Shown here: piece by piece, positions 44,769 to 48,662 of the stretch
How positions within the stretch are numbered: position 1 is the stretch's first letter
Layout: every line of letters starts with the position of its first letter
Source: Elusimicrobiaceae bacterium
Lineage (GTDB): Bacteria > Elusimicrobiota > Elusimicrobia > Elusimicrobiales > Elusimicrobiaceae
NCBI GenBank assembly: GCA_017520185.1
Contig: JAFXGO010000034.1
Location: forward strand, 1 to 51,325
Direction of reading: 5' to 3'
DNA: 51,325 nucleotides
Made by a program: the position numbers and the translations under genes
The notes under the pieces: model-generated
What the model saw: the letters and a program-made list of their open reading frames with translations, nothing else
Databases searched by the model: none
Told to the model about the DNA's origin: nothing

Positions 44769-46842
44769 ACGCATTTTTAGAAATTGGTTGTGAACATCTG
44801 CCTTCTCGCTTTGTTAAACCGGCTATGAGCCAAATGGAAAGTTTGGCTAAATCCCTTTTAGAAGAAAAACGCATTTCTTACCATCAAGTATCTGCGTTTG
44901 GCACTTATCGCCGTCTGTGCCTGATTATAGAAGGCATTGCCGAGAAATCTGCCGATGAGAAAAAAGAAGTCAAAGGACCTCCGGCTAAACTTTTAAAAGA
45001 TGCTCAAGGAAACTTCACTCCTCAAAGTGCCGGCTTTGCCCAAAGAAACGGTATTGCTCCTGAAAAATTGGTTATTAAAGAAACCGAAAAGGACCTTTTA
45101 TTTTTGCCGATTTAAATATTAAAGGTGAAAAAACGATTAAACTCTTGCCGGAAATTTTTACTCGTATTATTACCGGTATTGAATTTGCCAAAAATATGGT
45201 TTGGGAAGAAAGCGGGCTTAAATGGGCGCGCCCGATTCGCAGTTTAATCGGTTTATACGGAAATAAAATCGTTCCTTTTGAGGTAGCCGGTGTAAAATCC
45301 AACCGTTTTACTTATCCGATTACTTCTTTTGGTCGCAAGCCGATTCGTGTGGAAAAAGCCGATAAATCTTACTATGTAGATCTTTTAAAATCCCAACCGC
45401 AGCCTATTTTGGCCCTTCCGGAAGAACGCAGAGAAGCCTTAATCCGCAGCGTTATGGCAGAAGCCAAAGCACGCGGTTATCATGCGGATTTAGATGCTGC
45501 CCTAATTGAAGAAACCGTTTATTTCACCGAACATCCGGTAGCAGTTTGCGGAGATTTTGAACTTAAGTTTTTAACTTTGCCGAAAGCCTTTATCGGCACC
45601 GTTTTCAAAACCCAACTCAAAATGTTCCCCGTAGTCAATGATCAAAATGAAATTCAGCCGTACTTTATCGCCGTACGGGATGGTGTTTCCGTCAATCAGC
45701 AAGAAGTATGCGACGGATTTAAAAAAGTAATGTCTGCACGTATGTCTGATGCTGTTTTCTTCTATGAAAACGATAAAAAAGAAAGTTTGGACTTATTTAA
45801 AAACAAATTGGCAGACCGCACTTTTTTGGAAGGCTTGGGCAATTTGTTGGAAAAATCTGACCGCACGCGCGAATTGGCCATGTGGCTCTGTGACCGCTTA
45901 AATCAAAATGCTATTAAAGACAGCGTCACCTATGCGGCTGGTTATGCTTATGCAGATTTGGCCAGTTCTGTAGTCTATGAGTTTCCTGAATTACAAGGCT
46001 ACATGGGTGGCCGCTATGCAGAATTGGAAGGCCATAATGAAGAAGCCCAAGCAATGGAAGAATTTTACTTCCCTCTTTCTTCTAATTCAGAAATTCCCTC
46101 TACCTTAACCGGTGCTATCGTTTCTTTAGCCGGAAAAGTAGATACTTTGGCTGGAAACTTTATTATCGGGCAAATCCCCACCGGAAGTGAAGACCCCTTT
46201 GCTTTACGTCGTCAGGCCTTTGGTGCAGTGCGCATTTTACTTGAAAAAGGATTAAACGTTTCTTTAAAAGAAGTAATCCAAAAATCTTTATCTCTTTATG
46301 CCGGTAAAGATCTACAAGAAGCAGAGAAACAACTAAAAGATTTCTTCTTCCAACGTTTAGCCTTGCTCATGCAACAACGTGGCCATCAAGCCTCCACCTT
46401 ACAAGCGGTCAACCATTGGTATGAAACACCCCTTGAACAAGTGGAAACCTTGATTAAAGTGTTGGAAAATAGCCGAAGCGGTGCAGACTTTGCTGCCGCA
46501 GCAGAAGCCTCCAAACGCGTATGTAATATCCTGAAAAAGGCGTCTGTTTCCGACAATCGCGTAGAGGAAAACCTCTTACAGCAAGAAGCTGAAAAAGAAC
46601 TTTTCAAAACTGTACAAAATGCAGAATCCGTATTAAATGAATTGGCATCTCAAGGACAAACACAAAACGTTTGCGAACAAACTTTGTCTGTTTGTGCTGG
46701 CTTTGCCGCTCCGTTATCTAAGTTCTTTACAGATGTAATGGTCAATGTAGACGATACCGCCGTACGCAACAATCGGTTAGCATTGCTAAGCCATGTGCGC
46801 AGTATTTTAACGCAAGGCATAGCAGATATCAGCAAATTATAA
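44765..46842 (+). pseudogene. glyS: Glycyl-tRNA synthetase beta subunit, frameshifted at about 45105
   Basis: The first frame (44765-45115, 116 residues: FLEIGCEHLPSRFVKPAM, GPPAKLLKD) stops shortly after KETEKDLLF. The next frame continues without a gap as FADLNIKGEKTIKLLPEIF and runs to 46842 (KNMVWEESGLKWARPIRSLIGLYG, FYFPLSSNSEIPSTLTGAIVSLAGKVDTLAGNF, GSEDPFALRRQAFG, C-terminal anticodon-binding region). One missing T in the run ATTTTTG (about 45100-45107) restores a 692-residue GlyS, the normal length. GlyS is essential where GlyQ is used, so a sequencing error or recoding is more likely than true loss. Without correction the second part starts at 45145 from a non-ATG codon. Confidence 0.85.
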
Positions 46843-46857
46843 GGTTAAAAACACATC

Positions 46858-46891
46858 AAAAACCCTCGTTTATCGACGAGGGTTTTCTTTT
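46858..46891 (+). terminator. Intrinsic terminator of glyQS
   Basis: AACCCTCG-tttatcga-CGAGGGTTTTCTTTTTT, 16 bp after the glyS stop and just before the promoter of the ncRNA. Confidence 0.9.
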
Positions 46892-46903
46892 TTATTTTAC
46901 CCC

Positions 46904-46931
46904 TTGACAATTTATTAAATCCGCTTATACT
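46904..46931 (+). promoter_or_regulatory. Strong promoter of the structured ncRNA
   Basis: A perfect -35 TTGACA (46904-46909), 16-bp spacer and -10 TATACT (46926-46931), the closest match to the sigma-70 consensus in the window. Transcription should begin near 46938, and no ORF starts downstream. Confidence 0.8.
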
Positions 46932-46937
46932 AAGTAA

Positions 46938-47295
46938 TAAGTTAGTCCCGGTTCTAATGTTGTTTGGGGCTTTGTATGACTGCCAGATGTGAGAGGTTGG
47001 ACCGCTGGGTTGGGCTTCATTTACGCGCGGATGTATGAGCCGCAAATGGAGTGTTGCAAGGAAGGTTGCCGTTGATGTGCGCCGCGTATGTTGTGTGTCT
47101 TCTCTGCGGCGGCTAGCGGTAAGGCCGTGCAGACGTGGCGGAAGTAGCGGAGGTTGATGTATATGGTTCGGCCGATGCGAAGTGAGCAGTTGACAAGGTG
47201 TCCGAAGCGTAATTCGTTGGAACTGAGTAGAAAAGGAAAATGCAATGACACAAACGACGTGACCCCCCGATTGGATATCGGGGGGCCTTTTTTGT
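46938..47295 (+). ncRNA. Free-standing structured ncRNA of unknown class, about 355 nt
   Basis: The stretch lies between a consensus promoter and a strong terminator, carries no plausible ORF on the plus strand, and is much more GC-rich than its flanks. A 10-bp long-range helix joins 46957-46966 to 47251-47260. Internal hairpins: GGCT(T)CAT/ATGAGCC (47013-47041), GCAA/TTGC (about 47055-47068), GCCGC/GCGGC around 47080-47112, and a three-way junction closed by CAGTT/AACTG (47187-47225) holding GACA/TGTC and CGAA/TTCG hairpins. The motif GTTGATGT occurs twice. I find no RNase P core, no tmRNA tag/acceptor and no SRP GGAAGCAGC signature. Function unknown. Confidence 0.75.
47263..47292 (+). terminator. 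Terminator of the ncRNA
   Basis: A 9-bp stem CCCCCCGAT-tggat-ATCGGGGGG (47263-47285) followed by CC and a T run: a very strong intrinsic terminator. Confidence 0.92.
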
Positions 47296-47342
47296 GAAAA
47301 AATATATATGAATAAAAATCCCACTTTTAGCAGGGTCTTTAA

Positions 47343-47750
47343 TTACTCAAGCACACTGGGCGGTGGCAAAGGCCCATCTGTCAACAGAGAGTCTTCCTTC
47401 GGCTGAGATGTAGCCGTTGAAACGGTACTTTGAGTACCCGTCAAATTCAACTCTTCAGCTTCAGTCATCTCTTTGTCAATTTGAGTTTCTTGGTTTTGTT
47501 CTGTCCCGTCTGTCTGTGGCAAAGGGGTTAAGCGCATTTCTTCATAGGATTCCAATGCCGGCTCAATGGATTGCTCCATCGGTTCTTCTTGCACAGTCGG
47601 CCCCATGACAACAGGTTTAGATTGAACCTCTGCTTCTTGGTGAGAGTTCGTTTTCGGGCTGTATGTACCGGAGGGATTCCACCAAGTCGGAGGATTTCCG
47701 GCACAAGCACACAAAGATAGAGCAAACAAACAAATAAATAAATTTTTCAT
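47343..47750 (-). CDS. Small lipoprotein, proline/glutamate-rich, unknown
   Basis: 135 residues. MKNLFICLFALSLCAC has a lipobox with C16 (LCAC), so the product is likely lipidated. The mature chain is low-complexity (P, E, Q, T, S) with no fold recognised, and it ends in DGPLPPPSVLE. A TATAAT (47762-47757) six bases before the ATG gives it its own leaderless-type promoter inside the lipA tail, and it may also be read from lipA. A cell-envelope location is likely; the role is unknown. Confidence 0.7.
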   Translation of the reverse strand: MKNLFICLFALSLCACAGNPPTWWNPSGTYSPKTNSHQEAEVQSKPVVMGPTVQEEPMEQSIEPALESYEEMRLTPLPQTDGTEQNQETQIDKEMTEAEELNLTGTQSTVSTATSQPKEDSLLTDGPLPPPSVLE

Positions 47751-47768: not shown

Positions 47769-48662
47769 TTATAAAATTTTTTGTGCTAAAAGAGCCTCTT
47801 TATATAAAGCACCTGCCCGATAACTGCTCCGCACCAACGGACCACAAGCAGCACCTAAAAACCCAATAGAGAGAGCATATTGCTGCCACTTTTGATATTC
47901 TTGCGGCTGAGGATAAGACAGTACGGGATGATGCTCTTTAGAAGGTGCCAAATACTGCCCGATCGTTAGCAAATCCACCCCTACAGAACGCAAATCCTGT
48001 AAGGTATGTTTGATTTGTTCGTTTGTTTCCCCCAGCCCCAACATGATGCCTGATTTAGTGAAAACATTCGGAGCTACTTTTTTGCAATGGGCCAATAGGT
48101 CTAAAGAACGTCTGTAATCCGCTCCCACACGCACGCCGGCATAAAGTTCGGCAACGGTTTCTATGTTATGGGCCAATACGGCAGGACGCGCCGACAGCAC
48201 CGTTTCCAAATCTTCAGTTTTTCCGCGAAAATCAGGAATCAACGGCTCTACTTGTACTTCAGGAGTGCAAGCGCGTATCGCCTCTATCACGCGGGCAAAA
48301 TGGCCGGCCCCTCCGTCTTTTAAATCATCGCGGGTAGGAGATGTCAGCACCGCGTAGTGGATATTCCATTCTTTGACGGTTTTTGCCACATTTTCCGGCT
48401 CTTGCTCATCAGGCGGTAAAGGGGTTTGTTTGGTGACGGCGCAAAATTTGCAACCGCGCGTACAAATGCCCCCCAAAATCATAAAGGTAGCATCACCGCA
48501 GTTGAAACATTCACCGCGATTGGGACATCGCGCCTCTACACATACAGTGTGTAAAGAGCGCACGTCTAATGAATTTTGCGCTTGCAAAGCGCGCTGAGAA
48601 CGAAGGGCGGCCTTGTTTTTGCCGACCATTTCTTTTAACCATTGAGGAATTTGTGCCGTCAT
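47769..48662 (-). CDS. lipA: Lipoyl synthase
   Basis: 297 residues, radical SAM. The LipA-specific auxiliary cluster cysteines C41, C46 and C52 (CVEARCPNRGEC) and the SAM cluster C67-x3-C71-x2-C74 (CTRGCKFC) are intact, as is the C-terminal RSSYRA motif that supplies the serine ligand. It inserts two sulfurs into octanoyl groups on lipoyl domains. The start lies 21 bp from the divergent SpoIID gene, and no lipB is adjacent. Confidence 0.97.
   Translation of the reverse strand: MTAQIPQWLKEMVGKNKAALRSQRALQAQNSLDVRSLHTVCVEARCPNRGECFNCGDATFMILGGICTRGCKFCAVTKQTPLPPDEQEPENVAKTVKEWNIHYAVLTSPTRDDLKDGGAGHFARVIEAIRACTPEVQVEPLIPDFRGKTEDLETVLSARPAVLAHNIETVAELYAGVRVGADYRRSLDLLAHCKKVAPNVFTKSGIMLGLGETNEQIKHTLQDLRSVGVDLLTIGQYLAPSKEHHPVLSYPQPQEYQKWQQYALSIGFLGAACGPLVRSSYRAGALYKEALLAQKIL

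Follow-up and report, generated by a model that had tools for sequence, protein, structure and literature searches.

What kind of gene, if any, occupies the region between glyS and the convergent lipoprotein-like gene next to lipA in the genome of an Elusimicrobiaceae bacterium (1.42 Mb, here labelled G000)? For this part of the window (the whole stretch of DNA analyzed, 51,325 nucleotides, contig C34 of this genome), the original prediction proposed an unclassified structured RNA, either a lineage-specific housekeeping one or a highly diverged version of a known one. Comparison with 65 other genomes of the same genus leads us to a tentative answer, to which we give slightly less than an even chance: the RNA gene of locus 46904-47293, hereafter RNA-I, would be a structured RNA specific to one genus of Elusimicrobiaceae, predicted to be transcribed independently and to engage ribosomes.

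RNA-I as an Independent Gene

The features that delimit the gene, with gene names taken from the original prediction and synteny checked, are as follows.

45145..46842, + strand: glyS, upstream neighbor
46904..46931, + strand: sigma-70-type promoter TTGACA-N16-TATACT (11 of 12 consensus matches)
46938..47293, + strand: predicted RNA-I transcript, its start placed about 7 nt past the -10 box and its end in the terminator T run
47263..47293, + strand: intrinsic terminator CCCCCCGAT-TGGAT-ATCGGGGGG with T run
47343..47750, - strand: lipoprotein-like gene, downstream, convergent to RNA-I
47769-48662, - strand: lipA, beyond the lipoprotein-like gene

Both transcription signals were found as the original prediction had described them. 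The promoter box (TTGaca..TATACT) is kept 5' of nearly all RNA-I homologues, and the terminator stem (47263-47285) comprises nine pairs, seven of them G-C, followed by the T run; terminator-like sites number 4 in 801 bases vs. 0.9 in shuffles. The raised GC content likewise holds (0.515 for the RNA-I body vs. 0.415 for the window), and glyS has a terminator of its own at 46859-46886, 5' of the RNA-I promoter. At the level of sequence comparison, RNA-I is established as a conserved independent gene with its own predicted promoter and terminator. The claim of a real, independent RNA gene thus stands as to promoter, terminator, GC content, absence of an Rfam class and conservation, with the exception of the helices that had been named and of the statement that no ORF is present (both discussed below).

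Thermodynamic stability was dropped as support for a structured RNA, since the folding energy (z = -2.17 with the terminator) gives only z = -0.47 once the terminator is removed. A protein encoded on the minus strand (159-aa ORF, 46845-47324) was also rejected: long minus-strand frames are expected from base composition (median p 0.26), and this frame is broken by single-base indels inside a close clade.

Distribution and Synteny Across the Genus

In a DNA similarity search, RNA-I is 84–86% identical in two close relatives, and only fragments match in others. A covariance model built on the 3' core of RNA-I with the ORF region included (R1) retrieved one copy in each of 44 of the 66 genus genomes, and 10 further, strongly diverged copies, some of which score weakly with R1 once filters are off, were located via the lipA neighborhood in genomes that R1 had missed. 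Recognizable homologues are thus present in most of the genus (54 of 66 genomes, a single copy each) and in none of the 275 other genomes of the phylum searched. The remaining 12 genus genomes gave no RNA-I, several of the regions being cut by a contig end or having no lipA match; in two of the genomes (G011 and G015) the region is intact and no copy was recognized. The shortest copies of RNA-I (L108, L109) measure about 190 nt, the longest (D clade) about 520 nt.

Matches further afield did not hold up. Five R1 matches outside the genus (L099-L103; E 0.003-0.009, at the threshold) lie in coding-like sequence devoid of the promoter, ORF and terminator anatomy of RNA-I, and a Colwellia match (L037), coding-like and with neither promoter nor terminator, is a chance motif match. 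All credible matches of the motif search come from Elusimicrobiaceae/Elusimicrobiales metagenome-assembled genomes (MAGs) or from gut MAGs with the same gene neighborhood, such MAGs or relatives of them being present in the guts of sheep, buffalo, deer and horse; the motif was absent from the viral contigs searched for phage carriage.

In nearly all genomes the order is glyS, RNA-I and then, convergent to them, the lipoprotein gene and lipA. In one subclade (L013, L087, L088) order or orientation is altered, RNA-I being flipped as a unit in which promoter, body and terminator stay together; it is therefore an independent unit, not a leader. These observations bear directly on the possibility that read-through of the terminator, governed by the short ORF described below, controls a downstream gene as in a leader or attenuator. 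As in attenuators, the stop codon of that ORF directly adjoins the terminator hairpin, and a related RNA (RNA-II, see below) sits 5' of a co-oriented ORF in this genome, but a co-oriented gene directly downstream, expected of a cis-regulatory leader, riboswitch or attenuator, is not found, the neighbor of RNA-I being convergent nearly everywhere. Orientation and the flipping of the unit rule out an attenuator or UTR of lipA or glyS, and the attenuator reading as a whole is largely refuted and, in our estimate, highly improbable.

Comparison With Known RNA Classes

Nothing in Rfam matches RNA-I at the gathering threshold, and at E <= 10 only terminator-like or leader-like chance matches appear; the outcome was the same for 13 diverged homologues and for the RNA-II locus identified first. 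The unclassified status assigned by the original prediction is therefore retained, and RNA-I represents a new RNA family missing from Rfam and conserved through a genus of gut bacteria.

The signatures of RNase P RNA, tmRNA and SRP RNA had been reported absent, and Rfam gives no match to any of them at this locus. RNase P RNA (RF00010; G000:C19, 215 bits) and tmRNA (RF00023; G000:C29, 133 bits) are encoded on other contigs, RF01849 was not found in this genome, and ARAGORN detects neither a tmRNA nor a tRNA at the RNA-I locus. As for SRP RNA, neither RF00169 nor RF01854 matches the locus. In 71 Elusimicrobiales genomes, that of the window included, searches with positive controls gave no small SRP RNA (RF00169) over the cut-off and no M domain of its partner Ffh (PF02978), the latter being detected in all 14 of its controls. 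A highly diverged RNase P RNA, tmRNA or SRP RNA as the identity of RNA-I is thus largely excluded. 6S RNA (RF00013) was found neither at this locus nor anywhere in this genome.

The absence of a 6S match in this genome and of a small SRP RNA match in the order speaks for RNA-I being a diverged housekeeping RNA (6S, SRP, tmRNA or RNase P). We nevertheless consider this very unlikely, given the RNase P RNA and tmRNA genes at other loci, the missing Ffh M domain and an architecture (two long-range helices, P1 and P2, plus a hairpin) that differs from the hairpin of 6S RNA. The signal recognition particle itself appears to have been lost in the order Elusimicrobiales, in agreement with the remark that few Elusimicrobia possess SRP homologues (PMC7987157), and the translation and secretion biology of these bacteria deserves attention.

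Consensus Secondary Structure

The conserved elements of the RNA-I fold, in window coordinates, are listed below.

46940..46945, + strand: P0, 5' strand AGUUAG, pairs with CUGAGU at 47223-47228
46952..46959, + strand: P1, 5' strand UUCUAAUG, pairs with CGUUGGAA at 47215-47222
46961..46975, + strand: P2, 5' strand, pairs with a 3' strand upstream of the UAAUU bulge
47152..47173, + strand: hairpin GGUUGAUGUAUAUGGUUCGGCC, conserved, with two G-U pairs in its stem (47152-47157/47168-47173)
47193..47209, + strand: P2, 3' strand
47210..47214, + strand: 3' bulge separating P2 from P1, conserved as UAARU (UAAUU in the window)
47215..47222, + strand: P1, 3' strand CGUUGGAA
47223..47228, + strand: P0, 3' strand CUGAGU

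The comparative evidence establishes a predicted RNA-I body that is closed by P1 and P2 around the conserved bulge and carries, in addition, the conserved hairpin. The same P1-bulge-P2 arrangement is given by RNAalifold in each of six clades aligned separately, and is recovered by duplex folding of the RNA-I ends. P1 shows compensatory changes (C-G to U-A, A-U to G-C) inside the clade of the window; P2 is weak in this clade and strong in others; P0 contains one G.G mismatch in the window and is fully paired in three relatives. The hairpin (GGUUGAU...UUCGGCC) contains the most conserved letters of RNA-I, and its outer stem shows double changes too.

For a covariation test of P1/P2 (14 pairs), 16 distant copies were aligned with the bulge as anchor, the alignment anchors having been picked with the help of the fold for clade D and from sequence for clades E, F and L090. 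Among these copies 92.9% of cells are paired, and 57 cells are changed on both sides vs. 16.4 in shuffles (0 of 500 shuffles as high). The covariation score is 0.789 vs. 0.306 for shuffled alignments, and reaches at most 0.292 when the alignment is slid by one to three columns. RNA-I thus possesses the covariation-supported secondary structure that marks a structured RNA gene. Together with the Rfam negatives, the genus-wide conservation and the independence from neighboring genes, this strong covariation upholds the prediction of a lineage-specific unclassified RNA. The particular helices proposed earlier fared less well: a 10-bp helix joining 46957-46966 with 47251-47260 can be written in the window, but each of its three nearest relatives breaks 3–5 of the pairs and shows no compensatory changes. 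A three-way junction at 47187-47225 is not part of the consensus, where these positions supply the 3' side of the long-range pairing in P1/P2.

A Micro-ORF in the 3' Tail

The region had been described as having no ORF; this proved incorrect, as a five-codon ORF preceded by a Shine-Dalgarno sequence and conserved across the genus lies between the body and the terminator.

47233..47237, + strand: Shine-Dalgarno sequence AAGGA in a single-stranded tail
47245..47262, + strand: micro-ORF ATG ACA CAA ACG ACG TGA (MTQTT*), 5 codons, its stop adjoining the terminator

A Shine-Dalgarno sequence, an ATG, a few codons and a stop precede the terminator in 26 of 26 motif-selected copies and also in the diverged genus copies selected by the covariance model, with some bias towards copies retaining the micro-ORF, because both the homologue harvest and R1 take in the ORF region. 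If the ATG closest to the stop is taken as the start in copies with tandem ATGs, the micro-ORF has 5 codons in 48 of 52 copies, 8 in three and 4 in one, and it ends in TGA (40 copies), TAA (8) or TAG (4). Given the base composition, a first in-frame stop would fall at codon 6 with a probability of about 0.04 in each independent lineage. The stretch from the Shine-Dalgarno sequence to the AUG is predicted to be more unpaired than the whole RNA in 50 of the 52 copies. The inner 12 nt show a mean identity of 37% between distinct versions vs. 30% expected from composition, and the cores fall into 2 single-linkage clusters. The micro-ORF keeps its start, frame and stop, whereas its inner letters are not kept across the genus. 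Some clades do have nearly fixed letters (GAGTCGACG, GAGACGTCA), and the peptides, uniformly polar, follow recognizable patterns within subclades: M-x-S-C in one (MHSCK, MHSCN, MYSCC, MHSCC), METS[RKN] in a second and MKEST in a third. Of the traits of a dual-function (coding) small RNA, RNA-I therefore displays a part, namely the conserved Shine-Dalgarno sequence, start, frame and stop of an ORF.

Two smaller observations concern individual clades. Three copies of one subclade (L094, L107, L114) carry 8-codon, cysteine-bearing micro-ORFs (MSSCKIEQ, MGCCSGAV, MVCSGCGC), their neighbors having M-x-S-C-x. In the clade of the window, an overlapping ATG CAA TGA (47240-47248; ATG AAA TGA in relatives) begins 5 nt before the micro-ORF start; the ATG at 47240 is likely too near the Shine-Dalgarno sequence to serve as a start.

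Related RNAs With the Same 3' Module

A BLAST match limited to the promoter of RNA-I (L020) led to RNA-II, another unclassified structured RNA, which has its own promoter, a body unlike that of RNA-I and no match in Rfam, and ends again in a Shine-Dalgarno sequence, five codons and a terminator.

G000:C29:43512-43892 (L146): RNA-II copy of this genome
L122:2377-2757: RNA-II copy
L134-L152: RNA-II copies

RNA-II occurs in some 20 genus genomes. Its micro-ORF reads MIEST* in this genome and MKEST*, MKECT*, MTKSA*, MKASV* and others elsewhere (peptide pattern M[KNI]E[SC][TS]), and its stop is always TAG in the copies displayed. RNA-II also contains GCRUAAGUA beside a hairpin, reminiscent of the UAARU bulge of RNA-I.

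A scan for the combination of a Shine-Dalgarno sequence, a short ORF and a terminator, covering 1.31 of the 1.42 Mb of this genome, returned six units, including RNA-I, RNA-II and a candidate for a third RNA (RNA-III), while three Markov-1 random resamplings returned zero. A further unit (L188), its ORF lying inside a longer open frame, was not judged to be RNA-like.

G000:C17 (L172), near position 2657 of the reverse complement, reverse strand: RNA-III candidate

This candidate combines a promoter (TTGAAA..TATATT), a G/C-rich body of about 100 nt, a Shine-Dalgarno sequence, the short ORF ATGAAAATGACATACATGAGCTAA (MKMTYMS*) and a terminator, and is perhaps a third small RNA of this kind.

Proposed Function of RNA-I

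What would a structured RNA gain from ending in five codons? The reading we prefer, though with a confidence that falls just short of even, is that RNA-I is a trans-acting, ribosome-engaging regulatory RNA composed of a structured body and a translated micro-ORF tail. Ribosomes would bind at the exposed tail and go on to translate the micro-ORF, which would keep RNA-I on the translation machinery, or sensed by it, while the structured body would do the specific work in trans, with a protein or another RNA as its binding partner. With five codons, the terminator hairpin comes to lie roughly at the position that ribosome footprints indicate for the leading edge of a ribosome seated on the AUG. 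The distance between the AUG and the micro-ORF stop corresponds to about one such leading edge (some 15 nt), which may leave just enough room for an initiating 30S subunit between body and terminator, and a spacing of five codons from AUG to terminator would explain the fixed size of a micro-ORF with free letters. As the micro-ORF codes for no conserved peptide, translation is suggested here solely by frame, start, stop and spacing. The three copies with 8 codons and the one with 4 count against the ribosome-engaging reading, as the length is not absolute. Moreover, very short ORFs with strong Shine-Dalgarno sequences can be costly to a cell, which argues for a regulation not seen here.

Two other interpretations give different weights to body and tail. 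The leading rival, which we regard as unlikely, takes RNA-I as an mRNA that encodes a very small peptide of 4-8 residues (a signal, leader-type or modified peptide) under the control of a long structured 5' UTR. It draws on the retention of Shine-Dalgarno sequence, AUG and stop in all copies, on the polar character of the peptides and on the patterns kept within subclades and in RNA-II, but the residues are unconserved across the genus although the core of the RNA body is conserved, and no export or processing gene is linked to RNA-I. Since the residues are not conserved, a peptide made from the micro-ORF would more likely be a by-product than the product.

Alternatively, RNA-I may be a purely noncoding structured RNA (an RNP scaffold or small RNA), the letters resembling a Shine-Dalgarno sequence, ATG and stop being a protein- or RNA-binding site or a linker. 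Its covarying body would suit such a role, and the near-fixed ORF letters of some clades could represent a site acting at the RNA level. The low probability that we assign to this interpretation reflects inner codons that are near random between clades, yet flanked by an ATG, a frame and one of three different stops that are all kept, as well as the recurrence of the module in RNA-II, where the letters differ and the stops are TAG.

With RNA-II bearing this 3' module as well, the ribosome-engaging reading can be extended into a broader proposal, which we consider possible but rather doubtful: RNA-I, RNA-II and perhaps RNA-III may form a class of ribosome-engaging RNAs in Elusimicrobiaceae that have no overall shared sequence and are united by a closed structured body, an exposed Shine-Dalgarno sequence, a micro-ORF of about five codons and a terminator. 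The micro-ORF would then be a docking site at one ribosome footprint and not a peptide gene, and the RNAs would influence translation or signal its state. If so, this would be a simple way of tying a regulatory RNA to ribosomes.

Comparison With Known Systems

tmRNA, which combines a tRNA-like domain with a tag reading frame that has no start of its own, resembles RNA-I in being a stable, structured RNA that contains a short reading frame, ribosome use being characteristic of the former and predicted for the latter. RNA-I differs in having a Shine-Dalgarno sequence and an AUG, and this genome encodes its tmRNA elsewhere.

The literature searched yielded no paper on noncoding RNAs of Elusimicrobia, nothing on minigene-type ORFs in small RNAs and no description of an otherwise noncoding structured RNA whose 3' end carries a micro-ORF of fixed size; nor did the sources on raiA/ModT, OLE/ROOL/GOLLD and coding small RNAs (PMC11706538, PMC12286853, PMC5521070) reveal the 3' module of RNA-I in any of these. 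The raiA-motif RNA (ModT; PMC11706538) is, like RNA-I, a stand-alone structured chromosomal RNA whose role was long unknown, present in many species. It spans Bacillota and Actinomycetota, whereas RNA-I is limited to one genus and has another fold, a micro-ORF and no Rfam match. OLE, ROOL and GOLLD (PMC12286853) are, like RNA-I, large structured RNAs of bacteria and not riboswitches, RNA-I being shorter (190-520 nt), ending in a Shine-Dalgarno sequence and micro-ORF, and lacking a match in Rfam. A parallel in layout is found in the dual-function small RNAs, for which a survey (PMC5521070) covers ORFs of 10-50 aa: these, too, unite a structured or regulatory body and a ribosome-binding site with an ORF in one RNA, while the ORF of RNA-I has only about 5 codons, is not conserved in sequence and lies at the extreme 3' end, next to the terminator.
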